DNA of 64,000 nucleotides from Halorussus halophilus (GTDB taxonomy: Archaea; Halobacteriota; Halobacteria; Halobacteriales; Haladaptataceae), in assembly GCF_008831545.1 (NCBI RefSeq), contig NZ_CP044523.1:3162001-3226000 (forward strand), read 5' to 3'. A program made the position numbers and the translations under genes. Of the stretch, positions 5,228 to 60,753 are shown one piece after another. Numbering within the stretch: position 1 is the first letter of the stretch; every line of letters starts with the position of its first letter. A model generated the notes under the pieces. The model made no database searches. It saw nothing but the letters and a program-made list of their open reading frames with translations, and was not told where the DNA came from.

Positions 5228-5237
5228 GGTGGTCGAG

Positions 5238-5876
5238 ATGAACGAACAAGCGGAACTCGAAACTTCGGGTGCGCTCGAAGAGGCCATCGCGGAGAACCCC
5301 GAAGAGGTCGCCAGATTCGTCCGACGACTCGGACTCGTCAACGACCTCCTCGACGCGGGCGAACTCGTCAGCGAGGCTGCGGACGACGAGATGGTGACGA
5401 ACGCTGCCGCTACGAGCAGCACGCTCGCGGAGGCCGCCGATGGACTGGCGACCGACGAGACGACGCGATTGGCCGAGACAGTCGGCGAGAACGGTGACGA
5501 ACTCTCGGCCGCCGCGGAGACACTGGTCGAACTGCAAGCGAACGGAACGCTGGACGACCTCGCGGCAGTTGCCGACGTGCTACCACTGTTGTCCGGCGCG
5601 CTGGACGACGAGATGGTGACGAACCTCGCTCGCACCGGCAGTTCGTTAGGCGAGGTCGCCGACACCGCGTCGGACCCCGACACCGTCGAAGGTCTCCAGA
5701 CGATGCTCTCGGCGGTCGGCGAGGCCGCCGACTCCGAGACCCCTCCGGAACGCGTCGGCGCGGTCGGGCTGGTTCGCGCGATACGAGACCCAGACGTGCA
5801 ACGCGGACTCGGGTTCCTGCTCGATATCGCACGAGCTACCGGACGGCAGTTCGACGCGGGCGAAACGCGGCGATAG
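5238..5876 (+). CDS. DUF1641 domain protein
   Basis: The protein of about 212 residues is acidic, Ala/Glu/Leu-rich and helical, with two internal copies of a DDEMVTN motif (near residues 47 and 118) that suggest a duplicated helical unit. The C-terminal VGAVGLVRAIRDPDVQRGLGF block is typical of DUF1641 proteins, which often follow SQR-like flavoproteins. It starts 10 bp after the oxidoreductase stop. I chose ATG 5238, but GTG 5229 is also in frame. The function is not known; a structural or regulatory partner of the flavoprotein is a guess from context. Confidence 0.8.
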   Translation: MNEQAELETSGALEEAIAENPEEVARFVRRLGLVNDLLDAGELVSEAADDEMVTNAAATSSTLAEAADGLATDETTRLAETVGENGDELSAAAETLVELQANGTLDDLAAVADVLPLLSGALDDEMVTNLARTGSSLGEVADTASDPDTVEGLQTMLSAVGEAADSETPPERVGAVGLVRAIRDPDVQRGLGFLLDIARATGRQFDAGETRR

Positions 5877-5898
5877 AACAGGACAACTCCGTCTACTC

Positions 5899-6060
5899 GT
5901 CGTCTTCTTCGGTCGTCGTCTTGTCGAGGTCCTTCTGCGCCCACCTTTTACTGCGCTCGCTATTGCGCGGCCGGGGGCCGCGAAATCGCTCGCTTGCAAA
6001 ATCTGGACCAAAAACAGCCTCAGTCGTCTTCTTCGGTCGTCGTCTTGTCGAGGTCCTTCT
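5899..6060 (-). repeat. Dispersed hairpin element A flanked by a 38-bp duplication of the sufU 3' end
   Basis: Bases 5899-5936 and 6023-6060 are identical over 38 bp and encode the tail KDLDKTTTEEDD of SufU. Between them are 86 bp that, read on the minus strand, contain TTTTTGGTCCAGATTTTGC, a GC-rich hairpin and AGTAAAAGGTGGG. The same architecture recurs at about 6.5-6.8, 22.6, 29.5 and 51.9 kb. The insert supplies a TGA directly after the first tail copy, so SufU still ends almost as it would have. The distal copy ends one residue later (EEDDE, stop), probably the ancestral terminus. Confidence 0.75.
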
Positions 6061-6445
6061 CGCCCTCGTAGATGTCTGCACCGTCCTGGACAACTTTCTC
6101 GGCCAGCACCGCACACTTCACGCGCATCGGACTGATATCGACGCCGAGCATGTCGATGACGTCGTCGCGGTCCAGTTCCTGCATCTCCTCGACGCTCATG
6201 CCCTGCAACTTCTGGGAGAGCATGCTGGCACTGGCTTGGCTGATGGCACAGCCGTCGCCGCGGAACGCGACGTGTTCGATGGTCTCTTCGTCGTCGTCGA
6301 GTTTGACATCGACGGTGATTTCGTCGCCGCACATCGGGTTTTCGCCAGCGTGGGAGTAGGTGACCTCCGGCAGTTCCCCGTAGTTTCGGGGGTTCTTGTA
6401 GTGGTCGAGAATCTGCTGGCGATACATGTCCGAACCCATGGTCAT
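6020..6445 (-). CDS. sufU: Iron-sulfur cluster scaffold SufU/IscU-like
   Basis: The 141-residue protein begins MTMGSDMYRQQILDHYKNPR and carries the three scaffold cysteines in NPMCGDE, GDGCAIS and RVKCAVL. SufU-type proteins accept sulfur from the SufS cysteine desulfurase and assemble or pass on Fe-S clusters in the cytoplasm. The probable partner SufS is 7 kb away at 13027-14271. ATG 6445 and ATG 6439 are equally plausible starts; longer in-frame extensions run into repeat DNA and are unlikely. The C terminus has been duplicated downstream by an inserted element that also provides the present stop codon. Confidence 0.88.
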   Translation of the reverse strand: MTMGSDMYRQQILDHYKNPRNYGELPEVTYSHAGENPMCGDEITVDVKLDDDEETIEHVAFRGDGCAISQASASMLSQKLQGMSVEEMQELDRDDVIDMLGVDISPMRVKCAVLAEKVVQDGADIYEGEKDLDKTTTEEDD

Positions 6446-6774
6446 ATTGGAAGCACGTACGGGAGTGGCGTTGAAAAGGCTACCGACGACCTTTTCCTGC
6501 GGGGCGGGCGCGAGGCGCCCGCCCACTGGCAAAACGTCGATGAAAATCACCGGAAGACAAACCGCGTCTTCCGAGCCTTCCTTCACATCCGCTCAGGAAG
6601 ACACGTCGTCACCGCCTACGGCGCGGCTTCGCCGCGCCTTCGACGGTTCCTCGGACGCGCTCGCTCGGCGAGGCGCGCGTGGCGCGCCTCGCCTCACTCG
6701 CGGTGGGTGCGCTGGTGATTTACCGCCACCGCCTCCGCACCGCGACCGTAACGCCACCGCCTCCGCACCACAAT
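6446..6774 (-). repeat. Intergenic region holding dispersed element E (minus orientation)
   Basis: There is no convincing gene in these 329 bp. Read on the minus strand, there are two copies of a GCGGAGGCGGTGGC unit, several GC-rich hairpins, then TTTTCATCGACGTTTTGCC, a perfect 10-bp stem (6502-6511 with 6515-6524) and AGGAAAAGG. This order matches the element at 29.4-29.65 kb almost part for part. Confidence 0.65.
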
Positions 6775-58199: not shown

Positions 58200-60637
58200 G
58201 TTTCAATCCCGTTCTGGGTTTTCTTGCTTCTGCGACCACAACACCGGGAACATCCCCGCACACTCGAACGGGTTTCAATGCCGTAGTGGCTTTTCTGGCT
58301 TCTGCGACGTCCCGTTTACGTCGCCACGTCGCTCCAGAACAAGGTTTCAATGCCGTAGTGGCTTTTCTGGCTTCTGCGACGGTGTTTCTGGATTCCATGT
58401 GTCGTAAAGGTAGCAGAGTTTCAATGCCGTAGTGGCTTTTCTGGCTTCTGCGACATGGTCACGTCTTGCTCGAAGGTCGAGACGTACTGTTTCAATGCCG
58501 TAGTGGCTTTTCTGGCTTCTGCGACGGACGACGAGCGTCCCGGTGGGTGAATGTCATACGGTTTCAATGCCGTAGTGGCTTTTCTGGCTTCTGCGACCCA
58601 CTTGAAGACGACATCATAGATGGTGTCGATAAGTTTCAATGCCGTAGTGGCTTTTCTGGCTTCTGCGACTCGGTCGTACACCCACGGCCATGCAGTGACG
58701 ATTACAGTTTCAATGCCGTAGTGGCTTTTCTGGCTTCTGCGACATGTTGTAAATCACATCGTATATGTTGACCGAGAAGTTTCAATGCCGTAGTGGCTTT
58801 TCTGGCTTCTGCGACCCGCAAGGCCATGCTACCGAAGGCGTCGGCCACCCAGAGTTTCAATGCCGTAGTGGCTTTTCTGGCTTCTGCGACTCGACAGTAT
58901 GCTAATCTCGCTCGGCTCCTACGCTGTGTTTCAATGCCGTAGTGGCTTTTCTGGCTTCTGCGACGAGATGTTCGGCACCGTCGATTTGTACCCAATCGAG
59001 TTTCAATGCCGTAGTGGCTTTTCTGGCTTCTGCGACACTGCGTAATCTGCCGCCACCACATCCACGGCCAGCGTTTCAATGCCGTAGTGGCTTTTCTGGC
59101 TTCTGCGACCGTTCGACTACACGGACGGCGGCGCTCAGGAGTACCTGTTTCAATGCCGTAGTGGCTTTTCTGGCTTCTGCGACATTATCGGCACCGCGTT
59201 CACAGTGCTGTTTCTGCTGTTTCAATGCCGTAGTGGCTTTTCTGGCTTCTGCGACAGCCCCGACGTCACTGCTCGCGCGTGTTCTGCCTCTGTTTCAATG
59301 CCGTAGTGGCTTTTCTGGCTTCTGCGACCGGACATCACGAATCCTCCCAGCACTCTTGATGAAAGTTTCAATGCCGTAGTGGCTTTTCTGGCTTCTGCGA
59401 CGAGACGTTTTCGGGGACGTGTCCAGACTGCAACGGTTTCAATGCCGTAGTGGCTTTTCTGGCTTCTGCGACACGAGGTGATTAAACGGTGATTTACGGC
59501 GATATTTGTTTCAATGCCGTAGTGGCTTTTCTGGCTTCTGCGACGTCGCCGTTCTCCGAGACGGCCGTGATCGAGACGTACCGTTTCAATGCCGTAGTGG
59601 CTTTTCTGGCTTCTGCGACGTTCTCTCTCGTACCCTCATTTCGTACACGCTCGGCGAGTTTCAATGCCGTAGTGGCTTTTCTGGCTTCTGCGACGGCACG
59701 AACCAGCCACCCGCTCTCTCCAATCCCTGTTTCAATGCCGTAGTGGCTTTTCTGGCTTCTGCGACGGCACGAACCAGCCACCCGCTCTCTCCAATCCCTG
59801 TTTCAATGCCGTAGTGGCTTTTCTGGCTTCTGCGACGACCTTGATCCGGACCTTAATCCTGACCCCGACACTGTTTCAATGCCGTAGTGGCTTTTCTGGC
59901 TTCTGCGACCGTTACATTAGATTTCCGTGTCGGTACAGAATCTGTTTCAATGCCGTAGTGGCTTTTCTGGCTTCTGCGACGTAGTCGAGTATGCGGCCAC
60001 GGTGGGTGCGGTAGTCTTGTTTCAATGCCGTAGTGGCTTTTCTGGCTTCTGCGACGTAGTCGAGTATGCGGCCACGGTGGGTGCGGTAGTCTTGTTTCAA
60101 TGCCGTAGTGGCTTTTCTGGCTTCTGCGACACCGAGCGCGTCCAATCTTGATGGGCGTGAATTGAGTTTCAATGCCGTAGTGGCTTTTCTGGCTTCTGCG
60201 ACCGTGGGTGTCGCGTTCCAGCAAGGCGTCCGAAGCGTTTCAATGCCGTAGTGGCTTTTCTGGCTTCTGCGACCTCTGCTGGTTCGGTCGGGTCTTGCTT
60301 GGTCTGTTTCAATGCCGTAGTGGCTTTTCTGGCTTCTGCGACGAATGCTCGACCAGCGTCAGCGTATCTCCTTAGTCAAGTTTCAATGCCGTAGTGGCTT
60401 TTCTGGCTTCTGCGACGCAGGCGACGAAATGAGTCAAGCCGGACGCAAAGGCACGTTTCAATGCCGTAGTGGCTTTTCTGGCTTCTGCGACCGGAATCGA
60501 GGTCACCCGAACCGGCGAAGCGGCGGAGTTTCAATGCCGTAGTGGCTTTTCTGGCTTCTGCGACAGGCTTCACGAAGGATTTCGAGGAGGTCGTCTTTGC
60601 GTTTCAATGCCGTAGTGGCTTTTCTGGCTTCTGCGAC
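58200..60637 (-). CRISPR. CRISPR array, 34 repeats of 37 bp (type I-D)
   Basis: Repeats begin at 58200 and 58272 and then every 69-75 bp up to 60601; the repeat reads GTTTCAATGCC...CTGCGAC on the plus strand. Read on the minus strand, it starts GTCGCAG and ends ATTGAAAC, the usual archaeal repeat 3' end, so the transcript runs right to left with the 5' tag AUUGAAAC. Thirty-three repeats are identical; the one at 58200 is degenerate. There are 33 spacers of 32-38 bp. Two are duplicated in tandem: 59695-59728 equals 59766-59799, and 59981-60018 equals 60056-60093. Degeneracy at the left confirms the leader is on the right, next to csa3. The neighbouring cas6-cas10d genes make the system type I-D. 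Confidence 0.98.
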
Positions 60638-60753
60638 AGGGGGTGAAAATACAGTCATAGGGCCAATAAAGCTTGCTCCACCGCTCGTTCACGCACCGCT
60701 CTTCGTGGATCGGGGCTGTACACAGAGGTTAAAAAGGTCGATGAAGACTTCGG
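60638..60753 (-). promoter_or_regulatory. CRISPR leader
   Basis: The 116 bp between the newest repeat (60601-60637) and the csa3 stop are the expected leader, read right to left. AT-rich boxes on the minus strand (TTTTTAACC near 60733 and CTTTATTGG near 60667) are candidate TATA boxes. The leader may extend into the 3' end of csa3. No open frame lies here. Confidence 0.65.

Follow-up and report, generated by a model that had tools for sequence, protein, structure and literature searches.

The 3' end of sufU in Halorussus halophilus is present twice, on either side of a short hairpin element (E) that belongs to a family dispersed across the haloarchaea. On the basis of sequence comparison, we propose, with a probability of about 0.6, that E is a non-coding, class-wide hairpin of haloarchaea and that it propagates by inserting at the 3' ends of genes, where it leaves a long and variable target duplication. 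Members of this dispersed family have paired ends that covary, sit in sense orientation behind stop codons and end at a precise 3' boundary, while the distal gene tail is the resident one and the tail-element unit can grow in tandem. An insertion process of this kind at gene tails appears to have gone undescribed so far.

Results

The sufU tail is duplicated around a hairpin element

The window analyzed is the 64,000-nt stretch G000:C1:3162001-3226000, which lies inside a 4.45-Mb genome; the congeners referred to below are other Halorussus species. As summarized in Table 1, two copies of an exact 38-nt direct repeat, offset by 124 nt from start to start, bracket a spacer of 86 nt, confirming the initial annotation, which had described tail copies identical at 38/38 positions around an 86-bp hairpin element. 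The window contains no other exact spaced local repeat that reaches 25 bp once simple tandem repeats and the CRISPR array are set aside. The CRISPR array itself (58271-60640; 37-nt repeat GTTTCAATGCCGTAGTGGCTTTTCTGGCTTCTGCGAC) holds exact repeats of 113 bp (59943/60018) and 109 bp (59658/59729) that contain repeat-spacer-repeat and represent duplicated spacers.

On the minus strand the SufU C-terminus reads ..YEGEKDLDKTTTEEDD-TGA (..TTTEEDD*), and the insert opens with this TGA (6020-6022), so that the element does give sufU its stop codon, as had been claimed. The distal copy reads on into GAG TAG, yielding ..EEDDE*. If one indel is allowed, the sufU tail homology gains five bases upstream (GGGCG-AGAAGG / GGGCGCAGAAGG). 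RNA folding of the sufU copy as a single sequence gave -38.2 kcal/mol (z -1.45), only mildly better than shuffled sequences, and the structural claim therefore rests on covariation (see below) rather than on energy. The hairpin element upstream of sufU (6483-6720, with its long GC-rich palindromic module) is of the CATCGACG type, and no flanking duplication was found at its core (6483..6546).

Table 1. Features of the sufU locus (window coordinates).
Feature	Position	Strand	Evidence
sufU CDS, NifU_N scaffold protein; stop is the TGA of the element	6020..6439	-	Pfam NifU_N 2e-29
T1, proximal tail copy, within intact sufU	6023..6060	-	exact 38-nt repeat
Element E, 86 nt: TGAGGCTGT (5' part), TTTTGGTCCAGATTTTGC..hairpin..GTAAAAGGTGG + GCGC	5937..6022	-	family member
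5' arm of E core, TTTTGGTCCAGATTTTGC	5996..6013	-	18-nt pattern; reversed-control matches 0 in G000
3' arm AAAAGGTGG + 4-nt spacer GCGC ahead of distal tail	5937..5949	-	GGTNN gap = 4
T2, distal tail copy (resident, now fossil)	5899..5936	-	exact repeat; GAGTAG on its right agrees with how SufU ends in congeners
Old SufU ending GAG TAG (..DDE*)	5893..5898	-	sequence; congeners
Second element, same superfamily, TTTTCATCGACGTTTTGC..AAAAGGTCG, upstream of sufU	6483..6546	-	upstream module shares 96% identity with another locus
DUF1641 gene, convergent, other side of E	5229..5876	+	Pfam DUF1641

We compared sufU with its homologs in 17 congeners, to which it is 84-88% identical in nucleotide sequence. 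SufU is single-tailed in 17/17, and several of these proteins finish ..DDE* as the distal copy does. The left flank of T1 and the right flank of T2 are thus the natural ones, which is the mark of an insertion accompanied by duplication. The initial annotation had read the downstream duplicate as a fossil tail, and the passage of T2 into GAGTAG, the ending of the congeners' SufU, agrees with this. It had also called for an empty site in relatives: these supplied the single tail and, in several cases, the ..DDE* ending, but no genuinely empty allele at sufU was found among the 17 congeners. The sufU-DUF1641 neighborhood is common only to H. salinisoli (G013) among them, where there is one tail and an unrelated spacer. 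In Haloarchaeobius iranensis (L335, ~1500-2100) the tail of sufU is separately duplicated, over 36 bp, around another insert that does not belong to the family; since that insert is not E, the locus was left out of the counts given below.

E belongs to a class-wide family with covarying ends

No near-identical copy or donor of the 86-mer was found in its own genome (G000), and we rejected a recent copy from elsewhere in that genome. The search for other copies advocated at the outset therefore failed for the 86-mer itself, but it did uncover a dispersed family, together with tail duplications at other genes. In G000 we counted 21 occurrences of the 5' arm TTTTGGTCCAGATTTT when up to 1 mismatch was tolerated, and 37 of the related TTTTCATCGACGTTTTGC with up to 2 mismatches; the reversed controls gave none for either. 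The pattern is present in 18/18 Halorussus genomes and, in a class-wide draw with no reversed-control matches, the family was found in 75/146 Halobacteria genomes representing 41/58 genera. Core elements measure 44-189 bp, and near-identical cores are dispersed in G000, with 74/74 bases matching at loci ~2.6 Mb apart and 97% identity over 172 bases also seen between distant copies.

The dinucleotides that follow the 5' GGT/CAT and the 3' GGT are complementary in 187/194 copies, compared to a mean of 101 and a maximum of 117 after shuffling, and four end-pair types (CC/GG, CG/CG, CA/TG and GC/GC) are kept across copies. Inner TTTT-NN/NN-AAAA pairing was likewise observed 106 times versus at most 45 in shuffles. 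Rfam covariance models returned no relevant match to E. Two further features of its surroundings were seen: an upstream module of 60-80 bp is near-identical at other loci whose core hairpins differ, as though modules had been reshuffled, and back-to-back opposite pairs of E lie ~340-395 bp apart in G000 (C1 1824153/1824491, 2882881/2883251 and 1207974/1208369), as if they were parts of a larger symmetric element.

Tail duplications recur at unrelated genes

Tail-element-tail arrangements (T-E-T) were detected by local alignment of the left and right flanks of E copies; random-pair controls reached scores of ~19, plus outliers of 57 and 30 that we ascribed to paired homologous loci. T-E-T characterizes some 20 unrelated genes, spread over at least 6 families, although many of the scored cases represent one gene, that of aminopeptidase AmpS, in several species. 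The Halorussus genes, defined as open frames and named, beyond SufU and DUF1641, by sequence recognition rather than family search, are those for AmpS (many species), Spt5, a methyltransferase, a protein ending VVERTPLA and SufU. Tandem (T-E)n arrays occur in several families, among them a T-E-T-E-T-E-T array at AmpS in a single species from a different genus of the same family, in which tails 1-3 are identical and the last differs. Together with the ancestral distal ending, the single-tailed congeners and the empty AmpS sites described below, this recurrence bears out the original suggestion of an insertion with a long duplication.

The fairest estimate of frequency is 9/30 unselected class-wide loci (L355-L384), the figure of 25/64 sites including regions picked for closely spaced elements; the overall sample was partly selected for AmpS, Spt5 and such regions. 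At the same score, the background was 5/1504 for gene ends taken regardless of E and 30/4000 for random positions, and exact spaced repeats of at least 25 bp numbered 8 in 800 kb sampled in stretches from two Halorussus genomes. Local repeats of this size are thus rare without E, and we rejected a chance origin of T-E-T. Roughly 70% of unselected E copies lack a detectable duplication, reflecting either decay or another route.

Boundaries were measured in 37 cases. The distance from the 3' GGTNN to T2 was 3-9 nt (mode 4, SD 1.6), equaling 4 at sufU and in 15-17 of 35-37 cases and 3-5 in most others. The left boundary had an SD of 28 nt, an overstatement of its variability since in tandem arrays the next element sets it, and the duplications were about 26-105 bp long. 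A right end this constant favors a process specific to the element; a simple stagger of fixed size is hard to reconcile with the variable duplication length. In 36/37 cases E was sense-oriented at a gene 3' end, where an open frame on the same strand, 80 codons or longer, ended at the element; T2 began 20-79 nt ahead of the stop codon.

Empty and filled sites at AmpS, and differing tails at Spt5

AmpS has one tail and no E in G004 and G009, while E is present in G006 and G014. From the distal tail to ~200 bp past it, G006/G014 align collinearly with G004/G009, whose single tail and the sequence following it occupy the matching positions; this indicates that the resident tail is the distal one and that tail 1 and E were added. 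Several species have related elements in common at AmpS. Within species, the tail pairs match at 46/46 (G010, G002) or 45/46 (G016) positions, compared to an average of ~37/46 between species; thus, the AmpS tail copies have been homogenised, or the unit has been re-made. Tails that are identical within species yet differ between species at a shared insertion do not support a recent date for the sufU duplication, and as copies are homogenised or units re-made, the 38/38 identity gives no date for the sufU event.

At Spt5 of G015 (L230) the two tails differ: the distal tail and its flank resemble other Halorussus Spt5 ends and the proximal tail does not, which suggests allele exchange. Separately, the Spt5 ends of G004, G000 and G016 (L236, L239, L240) bear a different short hairpin, TTCCTCGGACCACGCGAACGGCGGAGCCGTGAGC, behind the stop codon, followed by a second short tail-like stretch, GGACTCCGAAGAGCG; this is possibly a further type of tail duplication.

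Discussion

Three other routes to a duplicated tail were weighed against insertion. During replication, a polymerase might leave the copied gene tail, copy a distant element and re-enter further upstream in the tail, a template switch that needs no dedicated mobility enzyme and for which the hairpin would be the hot spot. Long, variable duplications and variable left junctions are as it predicts, and some right junctions have short G-rich matches between element end and gene (GGGCG at sufU, GGTGG at a PGP-like gene in G003). Random switching would not, however, be expected to produce a near-constant 4-nt distance between GGTNN and T2, nor sense orientation in 36/37 cases, and we consider this route unlikely. 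If a pre-existing tail-element unit had duplicated in tandem and its second element had then been lost, the (T-E)n arrays would be accounted for, but the sufU distal copy enters the ancestral GAGTAG and AmpS is collinear with empty sites. Given this continuity, the tandem route requires exact removal of the second element every time; it is contradicted at sufU and AmpS and seems very improbable as the origin of T-E-T, although tandem duplication may be the source of array growth.

Alternatively, an incoming related gene with its downstream element could have replaced part of the resident allele, recombining by homology on the left and joining at the element end on the right, with the resident tail left in place. 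T1 and T2 are clearly different alleles at Spt5 of G015, in the distal tail of AmpS in G027 and at AmpS of G006, and Spt5 genes that carry the element without a second tail (G008, G010) are possible donors. For the identical copies at sufU and in G010 and G002, by contrast, a near-identical donor is required; moreover, the start of T2 is confined to the stretch 20-79 nt ahead of the stop codon instead of being spread over the gene, and the right junction is still precise. Partial allele replacement is thus quite improbable for the family as a whole, while it is favored at a few loci with differing tail alleles, such as Spt5 of G015.

Insertion at the gene 3' end could proceed as follows. The target would be opened around the stop codon by one break in each strand, the two lying far apart and at no fixed distance; E would be inserted into the opening, and fill-in would create both tails. 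A mobilising factor would recognize the pairing between the ends of E and, more speculatively, single-stranded DNA exposed where transcription ends might set both the 3'-end site and the fixed orientation. Tail-element units can amplify in tandem, and tail copies can be homogenised. The duplicated tail rebuilds the gene and E brings a stop codon, so that insertions would be nearly harmless and survive. In its most specific form, which we advance tentatively and at somewhat less than even odds, E would be a class-wide archaeal mobile hairpin with its own insertion mechanism, characterized by recognition of mutually pairing ends, a boundary 4 nt past GGTNN, sense-only placement at transcribed gene 3' ends and a long, variable tail duplication, possibly coupled to termination.

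The open-access literature yielded no description of the E motif, or of gene-tail duplication around E, in haloarchaea. The initial annotation's statement that duplications of this length far exceed what known insertion sequences produce was wrong, as insertions of IS1549/IS1634 (IS1634 family) are flanked by direct repeats of 8-514 bp, for which no mechanistic model was proposed (PMC2266710). E shares these long, variable direct repeats; however, IS1549 and IS1634 are autonomous elements of 1.5-2 kb with a transposase, whereas E is a non-coding hairpin of ~45-190 bp, sense-oriented at gene 3' ends, with one boundary precise and the other variable. An 86-bp insert and cores of 44-189 bp leave no room for an IS4-like DDE transposase of that type. 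As in MITEs, similar copies are dispersed (at least 45 bp at 90% identity or more between distinct G000 elements), but the duplications are long and variable rather than short and fixed. The two ends of E pair imperfectly (CCAGATTTT/AAAAGGTGG). A precise 3' end, a variable 5' end (inflated by tandem arrays) and variable duplications are also what SINE-like, target-primed reverse transcription would give; although the boundaries fit, we rejected it, since the reverse transcriptase family RVT_1 (PF00078) had no match in 18 haloarchaeal genomes while controls were positive.

Transposase-free mobile repeats are known from Haloquadratum walsbyi as SMRs and PATEs, and the mobilisation of SMRs was termed enigmatic (PMC3119063). 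SMRs have inverted repeats and no target duplication, unlike E with its long duplications, PATEs have palindromes related to IS605-type ends, and duplication of gene tails is not described there for either (PMC3119063). REPs are short palindromes dispersed near coding regions, and GTAG REPs often give flanking ORFs a TAG stop (PMC3733652); their tags are GTAG/CGTC, whereas the ends of E are GGTNN and N'N' complements and its hallmark is the long gene-tail duplication. Haloferax terminators comprise a T-stretch, some with an upstream hairpin (PMC7237163), and E similarly places a T-tract and hairpin behind a stop codon, so that its T-tracts make a terminator function plausible. A terminator need be neither a dispersed repeat with covarying ends nor flanked by two tails, however.

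Taken together, these findings point to a repeated, orientation-fixed route by which small non-coding elements would settle at gene ends class-wide in archaea while leaving the genes unbroken. They make testable the origin of very long, variable target duplications, left unexplained for IS1549/IS1634 (PMC2266710), as well as the means by which transposase-free haloarchaeal repeats move. They also serve as a warning that genes in these genomes can bear fossil tail copies and altered last residues.
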